The position numbers were made by a program, and so were the translations under genes. Shown here piece after piece: positions 17,550 to 24,090 of a DNA stretch of 42,085 nt. Source of the DNA: Gracilimonas mengyeensis (GTDB lineage Bacteria > Bacteroidota > Rhodothermia > Balneolales > Balneolaceae); the NCBI RefSeq assembly GCF_900182705.1, contig NZ_FXTP01000023.1:1-42085 (forward strand). The letters run 5' to 3'. Numbering within the stretch: the stretch's first letter is position 1; the number at the start of each line of letters is the position of its first letter. The notes under the pieces are model-generated. The model saw only the letters and a list, made by a program, of their open reading frames with translations, had not been told where the DNA came from and ran no database searches.

Positions 17550-18941
17550 ATGGAAGCAACTAAAAAGATTAAAGACTTCACCATACCTAAACCTCTTAAC
17601 AAAGAGAGGCCTTTTGAATATCACGAGCTGTTCTTTTCTATTACCGATCCGAAGTCTGTAATTACTTATGCCAATGATGTATTTATTCGCATTAGTGCCT
17701 ATCCCGAAGAAGAACTAATTGGGGTACTGCATAAGATCATTCGTCACCCTGATGTACCCAGAGCGGTATTTCGGATATTCTGGGATTTTCTGGAAGCAGG
17801 AAAACCCGTAGCGGCCTATGTGAAGAACCTGGCTAAAGATGGCTGCTATTATTGGGTGATGGCGCTGGCTTTTCCCTGCGAAGGAGGTTATCTCTCCATT
17901 CGCTTAAAACCGGGAACCAAACTGTTTAAAACGGTTGAGAAGCTTTATAAGGAAGCGCTGGAAGTGGAAAAGTCGGCTGAACAGCATACCGACAAGAAAA
18001 CGGCGATGATGCAAGCGGTGGATTTCATCAACAAAAAAATAAATGAACTGGGCTTTGACAGTTATGAGAGTTTTATGTGGCATGCGCTGGAACAGGAAAT
18101 GGCCAACCGGCAAGATCACTTATCTGGCACTAATGATATCACCCATAAAAATGTCGAAAGTGTACCATTTCAGATGAGAGACCTGGAGCATCTTTTATCC
18201 GGTTTATTCAATCATCTGGGTAGGGTTAGGGGATTGCAAACCAACCTTGCTGAAAATTCGGGCTTCATCAATACCCTGTCTTCCTCCATTGCCTTGCTTT
18301 CACTGAATGCCCAAATAGGATCTTCTAAAATAAATCAGCAAGATATTTCCCTGTCGGTAGTAGCCAAAAACATGGGCGATCAGGCTGTTAAAGGAAAATC
18401 TATTCTGACTAATATGAAGTCTAATATCAAACAGCTGGATAAGCTGCTTAGTGCTATGGCTTTCGATGTCATCTCTTCAAAACTTATGGTAGAGATGACC
18501 AACACCTACCTAAAAGGTCTGGGTGAAGAAAGAACAGATTCTACTCATGTTACCGAACTAAGCCCGCACGAAGTTATTAGTATCCTGAAAAATGCTTTTT
18601 CGCCATATTTGAATAGTACTAGTCGGCATCTGGCAAAACTGCCCCATCATATCCACAAACTGAGCAGTAACATCCATGAGGTTGAAAAGCTGCTTAAGAT
18701 GCTTCGTTTCACTCATAACACCGGTAAAATTGAAATATCGAGGATACGTGAAAACAGTCATACTTTTACTACCACCTTTAAAGAACTGCTGCAGGAAATT
18801 GATGCGGCCCAGGAGGTAGTAAGCACTTTATCGGATTTTATAAATGAAAGCAGATCTTATCATCGTTTCTATTATCAAAATAACACAAATCTAAAATCCA
18901 TCACTGACAGGTTAGAAATGAACGCACTTATAACGGCGTAA
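17550..18941 (+). CDS. Soluble PAS protein with degenerate MCP-like signalling hairpin
   Basis: A 463-residue cytosolic protein without membrane segments. Residues about 28-120 form an Aer-type PAS domain, with ISAYPEEELIGVLHKIIRHPDVPRAVFRIFWDFLEAGKPVAAYVKNLAKDGCYYWV, the pattern that binds FAD in Aer; written in pieces, the core is IIRHPDVPRAVF and KDGCYYWVMA. The rest is helical. Residues 238-285 (INTLSSSIALLSLNAQIGSS, then LSVVAKNMGDQA) line up with the MCP signalling tip LALNAAIEAARAGE...FAVVADEVRxLA but have lost its EAAR core. Receptor function through CheA/CheW is therefore doubtful. The gene is alone, with no che genes nearby. It could be an Aer relative that signals by another partner. 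Confidence 0.75.
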   Translation: MEATKKIKDFTIPKPLNKERPFEYHELFFSITDPKSVITYANDVFIRISAYPEEELIGVLHKIIRHPDVPRAVFRIFWDFLEAGKPVAAYVKNLAKDGCYYWVMALAFPCEGGYLSIRLKPGTKLFKTVEKLYKEALEVEKSAEQHTDKKTAMMQAVDFINKKINELGFDSYESFMWHALEQEMANRQDHLSGTNDITHKNVESVPFQMRDLEHLLSGLFNHLGRVRGLQTNLAENSGFINTLSSSIALLSLNAQIGSSKINQQDISLSVVAKNMGDQAVKGKSILTNMKSNIKQLDKLLSAMAFDVISSKLMVEMTNTYLKGLGEERTDSTHVTELSPHEVISILKNAFSPYLNSTSRHLAKLPHHIHKLSSNIHEVEKLLKMLRFTHNTGKIEISRIRENSHTFTTTFKELLQEIDAAQEVVSTLSDFINESRSYHRFYYQNNTNLKSITDRLEMNALITA

Positions 18942-19383
18942 AACGGTCGAGGTTGCTATTTTACATTTTTACTGCAACTTACAATCAATTGATTTACTTT
19001 AGGCGGGCAATTGATTGGGAATACATACGTGTAATTAGTGAATTAAGGAATACAGGTTCATCCCTTTTTGGAAAATGATCAAATATCCTCATCTGCAATA
19101 TCGTATGATTTCTCAGACCTGAAACCAAAAAGGCAATTGCTTTGGAGCGCATTGAGTGGAGCCGGCTACCGGGACTTGGATACAAGCTTTTTAACATCGT
19201 TCAGCAAAAACACAGATGTTCAAAGTGATATTTCTCCAATTATTAGTACCGGTGTAAACAGCCAATTTTCAGTTATTTGTCTTGTTAAATATTGGTTACA
19301 TTTTCTTCATTCGTATTTTAGTCACATTAGATCAAAACATCATTTTCATATAACATATAGCAATTAATACGGTTTGATTTCCG
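18942..19383. other. Intergenic region without a convincing gene
   Basis: A plus-strand frame of 99 codons (19068-19367) opens with ATG but has low-complexity, hydrophobic-mixed content and no family. A minus-strand frame overlaps it. I see no terminator after the PAS gene. This stretch may include a decayed gene fragment, but nothing supports one. Confidence 0.4.
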
Positions 19384-20355
19384 ATGGATGATTTTCTGAA
19401 ACGATTCTTTGTTTTCGTAGTTATACAATTATTTTGCTTCAATCTGCTTATCGCGCAGAATGCTAATCGTGAGGAAGTAGTATTTAAAAGTGGAGATCGG
19501 GTTTTAAGTGGTACCCTGGTTTTACCCGAATCTGCCGAAAATGTACCTGTTTTGATATTTATCGGAGGCATTAATGAATGGGGGGATCCATTTCCACAGA
19601 GACAGCCCTTCATTGAGCAAAACCTGGAACGTACTTTTTTGGATGCCGGAGTAGGTGTTTTTTATTATCAGCCCAGAGGGGTCGGAGATTCCGACGGCAG
19701 GTGGCATCGCACCACTCTTCCGGGTTTTGCTGATGATGCTATAGCAGCAGTTCGGTATTTGAAGCAGCGCCGTGAAGTAAATCCCCAAAAAATAGGCTTG
19801 ATAGGACACGGAGAGGATGGCTGGGTAGCACAAATTGTGGCTGCTGAAGCCCCTTCTGAAATATTATTTGCAGCCTCACTTGCCGGGCCAACCTTTGATG
19901 CCAAACGGCAGCTTATCAACGAGTACCATAGCGAGTATATGTGCGCCGGTGAAGACAGTACCACGGCTTATGACAAAGCCGTCCAAAAAGCGACTTCCCA
20001 TCAAAATTGGGTATCATTATTCCCCTATACCAAACGCTGGCGGCATATGAGCCTGAAATTGGATTTTGAGCCGGCCTCATATATACGAGAAATTAATCTT
20101 CCTTTCCTTTTTGTTTTTGCAGAGAATGATGGCAAGGTTTACGCTGACTGGGCCGAAGAAGAACTCAATAATATTTTTTCAGGTTCAATCCCCTCGAATT
20201 TTACTGTTCAGTCTATTCCCGGAGCCAATCATTTCTTCCACGTAGCAAGCCCTTGTTTTGAGTATGATGAATCAACGCGAGAGTCTCTTGAGCGAGACTT
20301 TTCATTTCGCTTTCGGGAAGTGCTGAGAAACTGGGTATTTGAACAGTTGCAATAG
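19384..20355 (+). CDS. Secreted alpha/beta-hydrolase-fold protein lacking the nucleophile serine
   Basis: A 323-residue protein with an N-terminal signal (hydrophobic to about 24, ending LLIAQ). The fold markers are GTLVLPESAENVPVLIFIGG (from about 43), VFYYQPRGVGDSDG (92-105), the nucleophile elbow IGHGEDGW (140-147), FVFAENDGKV with acid Asp249 and GANHFF with His283. In active relatives the elbow reads GHSxGG; here the serine position is Gly143 (codon GGA), two base changes from a serine codon. Acid and histidine are kept. The protein may bind rather than hydrolyse, or use another residue; this is inference. The codon-level reading frame is intact. Confidence 0.85.
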   Translation: MDDFLKRFFVFVVIQLFCFNLLIAQNANREEVVFKSGDRVLSGTLVLPESAENVPVLIFIGGINEWGDPFPQRQPFIEQNLERTFLDAGVGVFYYQPRGVGDSDGRWHRTTLPGFADDAIAAVRYLKQRREVNPQKIGLIGHGEDGWVAQIVAAEAPSEILFAASLAGPTFDAKRQLINEYHSEYMCAGEDSTTAYDKAVQKATSHQNWVSLFPYTKRWRHMSLKLDFEPASYIREINLPFLFVFAENDGKVYADWAEEELNNIFSGSIPSNFTVQSIPGANHFFHVASPCFEYDESTRESLERDFSFRFREVLRNWVFEQLQ

Positions 20356-20491: not shown

Positions 20492-20812
20492 ATGAGCAGA
20501 TCATCAGATTATATTTCAGGAATTCTTTCAGGAGCACTTGTAGGTGCCGCAATCGCTTTGCTTTATGCACCGGACACCGGTAAAAATACCCGTGACCGTC
20601 TTTCTTACAAACTAAGTAACTATTATGATGAGCTGAATGAGCTTATTGATCAGTTGCGGGCAGAAAAAGAACTATTGGTTTCGGAGGCCAAAGAAAAAGG
20701 CGACCAAGTGGTACTTGATGCTAAAGAAAAAGCCGAGGGGCTTATCAAGGAAGCCGAAGATTTACTGGAATCTATTGAAACCGCTAAGAAAGCGGCGAAA
20801 GAACAAGGTTAA
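20492..20812 (+). CDS. YtxH domain protein
   Basis: A 106-residue protein of the YtxH family (general stress/gas-vesicle-like small proteins). It begins with a single hydrophobic glycine-alanine helix (about 8-28, GILSGALVGAAIALLYAPDTG) that fixes the diagnostic LLYAPDTGKNTR motif. A long charged coiled-coil follows (about 44-104, rich in Lys, Glu and Ala). It is likely membrane-anchored with the coil in the cytosol. The family function is not established. The gene has its own promoter and terminator, so it is a monocistronic, strongly bounded unit. Confidence 0.9.
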   Translation: MSRSSDYISGILSGALVGAAIALLYAPDTGKNTRDRLSYKLSNYYDELNELIDQLRAEKELLVSEAKEKGDQVVLDAKEKAEGLIKEAEDLLESIETAKKAAKEQG

Positions 20813-20997: not shown

Positions 20998-23900
20998 ATG
21001 TTTCCCTTCTTACCTAAAAAAATCGCCCCGATATTTCTCCTTTTTTTCGCCTTTATGTTACCGGTAACAGCTTTTGCTCAGCTTTCGGTATCAAAACTTT
21101 TTCAAAGTCGCGTGGTGTTGCAGCGTGATAAACCCGTGAAAGTGTGGGGTAAAGCTAATGTGGATGCAAATGTAAGCATCACTTTTGCACAACAGGAACT
21201 AAGCACACAGGTTGCTGCCAATGGGGAATGGGAAATTACATTTCCAGCAATGGACGCCGGTGGTCCCTATACGATGACCATCACTTCGGGCGACCAAAGC
21301 ATTACCGTAACAGACGTTCTGGTTGGGGATGTGTATTTGATCAGCGGACAGTCGAACATGGAGTGGCCGCTTAGTGCCTCGGACGGAGGCAGTGCGGAAG
21401 CGTCTTCTGCAAATTATCCCGAAATCCGTGAATTTAAAATATCCAAAGCCACCTCTCCGGAAATTTCCGATGAGCTTGGTACTGCAAGCTGGAAGAAAGC
21501 TACTACTGGTTTTTCCACGGGTTCCTTCTCGGCAGTAGGCTATTATTTTGCCAAACATATTCATGCTGAAGAAGGTGTGCCCATCGGTTTGGTGAACAAT
21601 TCGTATGGCGGTGCCCGTATCGAGGCTTTTATGAGCGAACAGATGCTGGGCTATGACGAAGAAGACGTAGAGCTGGCCAATGGAGAAACCGAACGCCAGC
21701 CTACCCTGATCTACAACAAAATGGTTCATCCTATTCTGCCTTTTGCTTACAAAGGCATTCTGTGGTATCAGGCCGAATCAAACGGCGACAGCATGACCGA
21801 TGCCCTTGCCTATGGCGAATTGTTTAGAACCATGATTACCTCCTGGAGAGATAGTTTGAATCAAGGTGACCTGCCTTTTCTTTGGGTGCAACTTCCCAAT
21901 TACGGTCAGCCGGCCGGCGATACTCCCTCCACCTGGGATGCATGGCCTCAGCTTCGTGCACAACAAAGTTCCGCACTCAGCCTACCCAACACCGGAGAAG
22001 CTATTACTATCGACGTGGGTGGAACCGATATCCATCCCACCAATAAAGAACCCGTTGGCGATCGCCTCGCTCTGTTGGCCCGTAAGATGATTTACGGAGA
22101 AGATATTGTAGCTCAGAGTCCCCGATATCAAAGTAATGCATTGACCGACAGCGGTACCGTGGTAATACGCTTCGAAAATACCGGCAGTGGTCTGGTTACC
22201 ATTCCTGAAAGCGAAGATGTACATGCTTTTGCCCTGGCCGGTGAAAACGAACAATTTGTTTGGGCAAATGCTAAAATTGAAGACAATCAGGTTATTGTTT
22301 GGCATGATGATATCCCGGAACCTGAAACCATCCGCTACGCATGGGAATACAATCCTGGTGATGTGAATTTATACAACACCGAAGGTTTGCCCGCTGCGCC
22401 TTTTCAAACCGCAGTAAATCCTGGTTTTAGTATCGGTTCTTTCGAATCAGCACGCAGTGCCATTGAGGTGGGCCAAAGCACGACGCTCAGCTGGCAGGTA
22501 TTTAACGCTGCCTCTATTACGCTCGATGGCGCCTCAGTAGACTCTGTAGGCTCTCAAACCGTCACCCCAACCCAAACCACCACTTATGAGCTGATTGCCG
22601 TTAGCCGCAGCGATGTGTCCTTAACAGATACCGCCCGCGTCACGGTTGAAGTACTATCCCCGGAAAACATCAACCGTACCTATGGCAAGCTGGCCACGGC
22701 TTCCTCACATGAGACCTGCTGCGGTGATCCCCTGCTGCCTGAATTTGCGGTGGATGAAGATATGAGTACGCGATGGAGTAGTGCCTGGAGCGACGGCACT
22801 GGCGACAATCCCGCAGAACCCAATTATGACGGAACGCCTGATGATGAATGGATTACGGTAGATTTGGAAAATGCTATTGATTTGGAACGCGTGATCCTGC
22901 GGTGGGAAGCCGCTTACGGTTCTTCTTATGATATTCAGGTTTCCTACGATGGTTTTCTTTGGAATACCGTATATGAAGAACGTGCCGGTGACGGTGGCGA
23001 AGACAACATTGTTTTTGAAGAGCCCGTTACGGGTCGCTACCTACGAATGCAGGGGATAGACCGCGCTACCGAATTTGGTTATTCATTATTTGAGATAGCA
23101 GCTTATGGTACCGTCTCTTCTGTACAACCTCCGGAAGTTAGCATCTCAACAAGTTTTGGGAATTTTCTTAATAAAAACCAAACAACCGTGACTGTAAATG
23201 CTACAGCCGGCTCTGAAGTAAGTGAGATCACAACTGTTGCTTTTTACGTGAACGGCGAATTAGCAGAAACGATCACTGAAGCCCCCTATTCAGCTGAAAT
23301 AGAAGTACCAGGTGCTGACGAATTCACGGTAACGGCCGTGGCCACCGATGCCAATGGCATACAAGTGCAATCCTCTCCTCTTGTGCTGTATGGTAACCGT
23401 GATAATATGACTTTATTTGAAGCGGAGGCAGATGATGTAACCACTACTGGTGGAGCTTCCGTAGGCAGCCATGTGGGTGCAAGCGGCGGGGAGTTTCTGG
23501 ACTTGCAGGATGCATGGACGGTTACTCTTCCTGATTTATTGTTCTATAATTCCGGTGAAAAACTGGTAGTCATTGGGTACCAACTGCTTTATGAAACCCC
23601 GAAATCCCAATATTTAGTAGTGAACGGAGATACCGTGGAGACCATTGAATTTACCGCTCCTGACACTGAAAGCTGGATGACCTATGCCACTAAAATAAAT
23701 ATCGAAGATCCATTCGGCGATAACCAAATAGCTATTCATGGTTTTTGGAACTGGATGGGTATTGATTACATCAAAATTAGTGATATCAATATTGGTCTCT
23801 CAACCGAAGACGGAGGCGAACTGCCTACCCGATTTGATCTGAAGCAAAACTATCCCAACCCATTCAACCCTACTACACAAATAACCTTTCAGCTGCCCAA

Positions 23901-24090
23901 AACTGAAAAAATAAAGCTACAAGTGTTTGATGTAACAGGCAAACTAGTTGGTACTTTAGTTGATAAAGTGGAACAAGCCGGTACTCATACGATCTCTTTT
24001 GATGCAGGTAATCTTTCCAGCGGCATTTACTTCTACCAGCTTTCCGGTTCTTTTGGAATCAGAACACAGAAAATGACGCTTATTAAATGA
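20998..24090 (+). CDS. Secreted sialate O-acetylesterase-like protein with discoidin and T9SS sorting domains
   Basis: A 1030-residue exported SGNH-type esterase that probably removes acetyl groups from sialic acids or other glycans. The signal peptide is about 1-27 (VTAFAQ). The catalytic domain is about 28-470, with the nucleophile Ser118-119 region LISGQSNMEWPL, LWYQAESNGDS (from 255) and the Asp344-His346 pair in GTDIHP. A small Ig-like segment (about 470-552) and an F5/8-type-C/discoidin domain (about 565-704, VDEDMSTRWSS, YLRMQGIDRATEFGYSLFEIAAYG) follow. Next is a bacterial Ig-like region (about 712-797), then a CBM6/35-like jelly roll (about 806-929). Residues 945-1030, beginning QNYPNPFNPTTQITFQLP, form the type IX secretion C-terminal domain. 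It is the clearest lineage marker here. No polysaccharide utilisation genes adjoin it. Confidence 0.93.
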   Translation: MFPFLPKKIAPIFLLFFAFMLPVTAFAQLSVSKLFQSRVVLQRDKPVKVWGKANVDANVSITFAQQELSTQVAANGEWEITFPAMDAGGPYTMTITSGDQSITVTDVLVGDVYLISGQSNMEWPLSASDGGSAEASSANYPEIREFKISKATSPEISDELGTASWKKATTGFSTGSFSAVGYYFAKHIHAEEGVPIGLVNNSYGGARIEAFMSEQMLGYDEEDVELANGETERQPTLIYNKMVHPILPFAYKGILWYQAESNGDSMTDALAYGELFRTMITSWRDSLNQGDLPFLWVQLPNYGQPAGDTPSTWDAWPQLRAQQSSALSLPNTGEAITIDVGGTDIHPTNKEPVGDRLALLARKMIYGEDIVAQSPRYQSNALTDSGTVVIRFENTGSGLVTIPESEDVHAFALAGENEQFVWANAKIEDNQVIVWHDDIPEPETIRYAWEYNPGDVNLYNTEGLPAAPFQTAVNPGFSIGSFESARSAIEVGQSTTLSWQVFNAASITLDGASVDSVGSQTVTPTQTTTYELIAVSRSDVSLTDTARVTVEVLSPENINRTYGKLATASSHETCCGDPLLPEFAVDEDMSTRWSSAWSDGTGDNPAEPNYDGTPDDEWITVDLENAIDLERVILRWEAAYGSSYDIQVSYDGFLWNTVYEERAGDGGEDNIVFEEPVTGRYLRMQGIDRATEFGYSLFEIAAYGTVSSVQPPEVSISTSFGNFLNKNQTTVTVNATAGSEVSEITTVAFYVNGELAETITEAPYSAEIEVPGADEFTVTAVATDANGIQVQSSPLVLYGNRDNMTLFEAEADDVTTTGGASVGSHVGASGGEFLDLQDAWTVTLPDLLFYNSGEKLVVIGYQLLYETPKSQYLVVNGDTVETIEFTAPDTESWMTYATKINIEDPFGDNQIAIHGFWNWMGIDYIKISDINIGLSTEDGGELPTRFDLKQNYPNPFNPTTQITFQLPKTEKIKLQVFDVTGKLVGTLVDKVEQAGTHTISFDAGNLSSGIYFYQLSGSFGIRTQKMTLIK

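Follow-up and report, generated by a model that had tools for sequence, protein, structure and literature searches.

What has become of a hydrolase whose nucleophile elbow no longer holds a serine, when the frame is open and the rest of the fold appears to stand? The question is raised by a gene of Gracilimonas mengyeensis in a stretch of 42,085 nucleotides (hereafter the window). Its open reading frame starts with an ATG at 19384, stops with a TAG at 20353-20355 and translates into 323 residues (Table 1). The original prediction had described an intact frame, a GHGEDG elbow with Gly at the nucleophile site, and an acid and a histidine, Asp249 and His283, that remain. This description holds: frame and coordinates are correct, the elbow occupies residues 141-146, and Asp249 and His283 align with the acid and the His of Ser-type relatives.

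Table 1. Features of the hydrolase-fold gene, in coordinates of the window.
Feature	Coordinates	Strand	Basis
Entire gene; product of 323 aa with the alpha/beta-hydrolase fold, catalytic Ser missing	19384..20355	+	Intact ORF, Pfam, AlphaFold2
Putative signal peptide, residues 1-24, ahead of Gln25	19384..19455	+	By eye: hydrophobic helix, then A-Q
Oxyanion-loop region, residues 57-76, remodelled: GGxxEWGD...QR vs VGSGxNSSHRT	19552..19611	+	Identity drop
Nucleophile elbow, G141-H-G-E-D-G146	19804..19821	+	Sequence and alignment
Gly143 (GGA), nucleophile position	19810..19812	+	Gapless alignment to Ser rows
Glu144-Asp145, clade-invariant (Ser-type: Gln-Gly)	19813..19818	+	12/12 vs 0/23 rows
Lid region, residues 172-236, clade-specific His206 and His221	19897..20091	+	Alignment; model helices; boundaries estimated
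Cys187, possible disulfide partner of Cys291	19942..19944	+	Invariant in 35/35 rows; bond predicted
Asp249, catalytic acid position, retained	20128..20130	+	12/12 clade rows
His283, catalytic His position, retained	20230..20232	+	11/12 clade rows; Arg in G003
Cys291	20254..20256	+	Invariant in 35/35 rows

The structure model and six Pfam alpha/beta-hydrolase models that pass their cut-offs place the protein in the alpha/beta-hydrolase fold. Of the NCBIfam models, the five listed all fall short of theirs; the UilS lactonase model scores 31.7 bits against a curated cut-off of 400, and the EstD esterase model 26.6 bits against 600. The AlphaFold2 models of the window protein (pLDDT 91.8, pTM 0.87) and of the Ser-type protein L047 (pLDDT 93.0, pTM 0.89) match the same solved esterases and lipases by fold comparison and Foldseek. 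Among solved folds 7qjm ranks first against either model (window protein: Z 26.1 and rmsd 2.5 across 255 residues; L047: Z 27.0 and rmsd 2.3 across 252), and all 1000 chains compared with the window model score Z 8 or more; by sequence, the nearest solved structure is 9h0z (E 2.6e-12). Compared with a Ser-His-acid hydrolase, the protein has the acid after beta7 and the His after beta8, and it lacks the elbow nucleophile after beta5. The helix that follows the elbow begins at residue 145 in the window model, two past Gly143, and one past the Ser in L047. Neither the GHSQG elbow of the Balneolaceae orthologue group nor the Asp nucleophile of the haloalkane dehalogenases and epoxide hydrolases is found at this site, which holds Gly in the window protein and Asp only in one relative, G026. 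At the N-terminus there is a hydrophobic leader with I-A-Q at its end, and AQ could be read within residues 1-45 in 12/12 members of the Ser-less clade described below; the protein is probably exported.

In a search of 92 genomes of the family, with E<=1e-30 as the threshold for an orthologue, the gene was found in 34, one copy each, and internal stops were absent from all 34 matches. The elbow could be read in 33 of these (G110 gave a cut match and no locus): the nucleophile Ser is absent in 12 and embedded in GHSQG in the other 21. The Ser-less set comprises all ten genomes searched from the window genus together with G015 and G026, each from a further genus; loci L042-L046 apparently duplicate five of the genomes, with the same elbows, and were counted once. 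Position 143 is Gly in 11 of the 12, each time followed by E-D, as it also is in the twelfth, G026 (L010/L044), which has Asp at the nucleophile position in a GHDEDA elbow. In a 35-row alignment Gly143 falls without gaps on the Ser of 13/13 Ser-type and 10/10 outgroup rows. Another member, G003 (L011/L045), has Arg in place of the catalytic His. The window protein is 39-45% identical to most Balneolaceae Ser-type orthologues, with genus g4 and the two most distant excluded. The 37 loci of a search of named genomes include hits in Gracilimonas amylolytica (Balneolaceae), in the window genus, and Ser-type relatives in Cesiribacter, Pontibacter, Indibacter, Saprospiraceae and Chitinophagaceae. 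A sample of the phylum yielded matches in 25/394 genomes at E<=1e-40 and added one locus beyond the family, L121 (G158), which is of the Ser type with GHSQGG. No viral homologue was confirmed among 23 candidate stretches. Within the 12 clade genomes no Ser-type paralogue was detected at E<=1e-30. The idea that such a paralogue has taken over was dropped, since the weaker matches in some clade genomes are other hydrolases that align in part, at about 22-33% identity.

These comparisons also settle whether the missing serine could be a sequencing error. The original prediction had thought this unlikely because the GGA codon is two changes from a serine codon. The distance is correct, while the argument carries little weight, since the 13 Ser-type relatives read use AGC or AGT and 7/12 clade members have GGC or GGT at position 143, one change away; for the same reason a single A-to-G change explains the loss. 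That an error is unlikely stands on other grounds: all 12 genomes carry Gly (11) or Asp (1), and the proposed alignment of close homologues finds them without Ser and the replacement fixed in one clade.

In a protein tree of 42 rows (76 aligned rows less 13 remote matches, identical proteins being counted once), a branch supported at 100/100 sets the 12 Ser-less proteins apart, although long branches meet at the point where they join the rest. The neighbouring genes PPIase and LexA, taken together, yield a tree with the same split, again at 100/100, between 11 Gly/Asp-type and 8 Ser-type genomes, which suggests that the loss of Ser followed the species; this tree covers 19/21 genomes, since both markers were missing from the regions retrieved for G061 and for the clade member G006. 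Both types share a gene order in which acyl-CoA dehydrogenases come first, followed often by a haem-binding protein and in many genomes by DinB, and then by the hydrolase, PPIase and LexA. The Balneolaceae GHSQGG group is identified as orthologous by its sister position in the tree and by the neighbours that the Ser-type genomes compared have in common with the 11 clade genomes other than that of the window.

The window genome is the exception to this order. Its PPIase-LexA pair lies on contig C18 (L100) without the hydrolase, which has gone from the usual locus, and a search of this genome for DinB gave no match. Upstream of the hydrolase (region 17550-20355) lies a PAS-domain gene; of the nine other genomes in the genus, five have a match to it, which in no case shares a contig with the hydrolase. 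Directly downstream is a small YtxH-family protein (20492-20812, plus strand). It is followed by a protein of 1030 residues (20998-24090, plus strand) with sialate O-acetylesterase (SASA), F5/8-type C and C-terminal secretion-sorting domains, which has only partial matches of about 240 residues in the genus at E<=1e-50.

DinB (superfamily PF12867; for example L086:7354-8868) stands directly upstream of the hydrolase in 11/11 non-window clade neighbourhoods and in 2/9 of the Ser-type neighbourhoods fetched. Where a family genome has both genes they adjoin (18/18, with at most 153 bases between the matches), in Ser- and Gly/Asp-type genomes alike, and in four further family genomes DinB has a match while the hydrolase has none at E<=1e-30. 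We considered whether a functional link with DinB might account for the Ser loss and rejected this: 16/34 hydrolase genomes, the window genome among them, have no DinB match at E<=1e-25, and the pairing thus does not explain the loss.

dN/dS could be measured in two clade pairs, the only ones out of 55 with dS below 1 (most others are saturated), and both indicate constraint. For G009/G002, dN is 0.032 and dS 0.309 (ratio 0.103; Fisher test on crude counts, p 3.6e-23), and for G007/G001, 0.016 and 0.165 (ratio 0.098; p 1.2e-13). In the same two pairs the neighbouring genes give 0.091 twice for PPIase, 0.088 and 0.175 for DinB, and 0 twice for LexA. Clade pairs with dS of about 2 to 5 have dN/dS of 0.075-0.176, and the remaining pairs gave no value. 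Purifying selection on the Ser-less gene is supported by these two pairs and their crude counts.

What else changed with the serine was read from the alignment of 12 Gly/Asp-type, 13 Ser-type and 10 outgroup rows, with the Ser-type rows of genus g4 left out. If a switch is defined as a residue present in at least 11/12 of the Ser-less clade and a different one in at least 12/13 of the Ser-type rows, there are 19 of them: G61, W66, G67 and R73 in the oxyanion loop, P97 in the loop after beta4, F115, G143, E144 and D145 in the elbow, Q201, H206, Q207, H221 and M222 in the lid, and E30, V33, V40, I77 and Y95 elsewhere. With L012 excluded, the two types are on average 42% identical along the mature protein and 41% identical in the lid, but the figure drops to 23% for the oxyanion loop. 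The elbow has altered together with that loop and the lid, and E144, D145, H206 and H221 are invariant in 12/12 and new to the clade. Residue 142, which is His in all 23 Ser-type and outgroup rows, is H, Q, L or M in the clade; this variation and the Arg at position 283 of G003 are what one would expect of a triad that has fallen out of use. None of the 19 switches introduces a Ser, Thr or Cys. As replacement nucleophiles the clade-conserved S103, S165, S183, S205, S211, S307, C187 and C291 were set aside because they are present in all or many Ser-type rows as well; T216 is Lys in 9/13 Ser-type rows.

How these observations are to be read depends on whether the rebuilt pocket still does chemistry. 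Decay of the gene, or an error of sequencing or assembly, has a negligible chance of being the answer. The window copy does lie off the ancestral locus, in a genome where the usual DinB neighbour was not found, yet a serine missing from 12/12 genomes, the absence of stops in 34 matches and a dN/dS of 0.10 are at odds with both, which are refuted by the selection on the gene and by a replacement that the whole clade shares. It is very improbable that the protein is an Asp-nucleophile hydrolase of the dehalogenase or epoxide-hydrolase kind, or that the nucleophile has shifted to E144 or D145. Such a mechanism could appeal to the Asp of G026 and to the invariant E144-D145, but 11/12 members, the window protein included, have Gly at 143. 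A shifted nucleophile was moreover rejected on the register of the alignment, which W147, A149 and Q150 hold without gaps: were residue 145 the nucleophile, Trp would fall at +2, a position that is normally small, and with residue 144 in that role H142 would fall at -2.

The main rival to a binding function is a new enzyme, with the pocket rebuilt for Ser-free chemistry in which the Asp249-His283 dyad would serve as general base and/or E144 and D145 would act with His206 and His221, perhaps around a metal. Alpha/beta-hydrolase-fold enzymes that do not use the Ser acyl route exist. The conservation of Asp249 (12/12) and His283 (11/12) and the invariance of E144 and D145, which also suit a new active site and so count against a pseudoenzyme, are the best arguments for it; the clade-new and equally invariant H206 and H221 also speak in its favour. 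However, G003 has lost the His to Arg, G026 differs at position 143, and E144, D145, H206 and H221 may not meet in space; we regard a new enzyme as unlikely, though worth keeping in mind. A broader variant, to which we give a little less credence still, is that an exported hydrolase present in one copy acquired in place, no active copy being retained, a new Ser-free site for catalysis or sensing, made up of E144, D145, His206, His221 and the old Asp249-His283 dyad. If true, the clade would have a chemistry or a kind of ligand sensing so far undescribed for the alpha/beta-hydrolase fold.

The nucleophile has been lost in one clade, at the same locus, with the fold kept and under selection. We infer that the Ser-less protein is catalytically inactive, and the pseudoenzyme proposed in the original prediction gains support, as far as sequence comparison goes, from fixation in the clade, purifying selection and the lack of a visible replacement nucleophile. 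The explanation that we consider probable, with some reserve, is an exported pseudoenzyme of the alpha/beta-hydrolase fold in which Ser-based hydrolysis was lost once and in place, the fold being kept for a binding or scaffold role; that there was one loss in place is indicated by the single clade, the locus shared with the Ser type and the lack of a close second copy. The ancestor would have been a single-copy Ser-His-Asp hydrolase of the Balneolaceae with a GHSQGG elbow, and the nucleophile would have been lost at the original locus in the common ancestor of the window genus and the two further genera, for which a change from AGY to GGY would suffice. On the same branch the lid, the elbow (Q144E, G145D) and both the oxyanion and the DKRG loops would have been remodelled, and purifying selection would then have maintained the product. 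Without Ser143 an acyl-enzyme cannot form by the standard mechanism. The protein would most likely act by binding, either to a small molecule in what was once the active-site pocket or to another protein or a glycan as partner; it would do so in the periplasm or on the cell surface.

The closest known systems are the GHSQGG hydrolases of Balneolaceae and other Bacteroidota (L047, L065, L013), which share with the window protein the locus, the gene order, the predicted fold, Cys187/Cys291 and the Asp and His, and which differ in their nucleophilic Ser, the GSGxNSS loop and the Q-G that follows the Ser. The nearest solved structures are the thermophilic lipase TTL (7q4h/9h0z), feruloyl esterases (7wwh, 2wtm) and the hydrolase 7qjm, at about 15-22% identity over the fold; deliberate Ser mutants aside, these are Ser enzymes. 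That six Pfam hydrolase models accept a Ser-less protein calls for caution in annotation. PcrP is a bacterial protein with a non-catalytic function, in a different fold. A partial literature search, covering titles and the openings of abstracts, returned no bacterial alpha/beta-hydrolase pseudoenzyme; FrsA was considered as an analogue and dropped, its triad being described as conserved (PMC6450606).

The non-catalytic alpha/beta-hydrolases found in that search are animal proteins, whereas the gene studied here is bacterial. In DPP10 (Gly651) and DPP6 (Asp712) the nucleophile Ser is replaced, His and Asp are kept and the proteins are inactive, and activity is reported not to have returned when the Ser was reinstated (PMC4350108). 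They share with the Ser-less clade the alpha/beta-hydrolase fold and the same two replacements, Gly and Asp, and in DPP10 the residue before the Ser has changed as well; they differ as animal membrane proteins with a beta-propeller that modulate Kv4 channels and are not orthologous (PMC4350108). The window protein lacks their S9B architecture of propeller and hydrolase domain, consisting of a single domain after a leader. Among animal proteins of other subfamilies, neuroligins, gliotactin, neurotactin and the C-terminal domain of thyroglobulin are described as using the fold without a working triad for binding or regulation (PMC5943944); the same is described for NDRG2/3, with the whole triad lost (PMC7022630), and for ABHD5, with Asn at the Ser position (PMC9694394). 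By likeness to DPP6/10, the neuroligins and NDRG, the suggested role as a receptor or binding protein is plausible, and we think that the fold may be kept for binding, as in DPP10 with its Gly and DPP6 with its Asp. One paper names gene duplication as what drives the evolution of pseudoenzymes (PMC6549527). In contrast to that route, the nucleophile was here lost at its own locus, with no close second copy in the same genomes, and the Ser-type orthologue at the same place in related genera offers a clean pair for testing what a fold does after its chemistry is gone.
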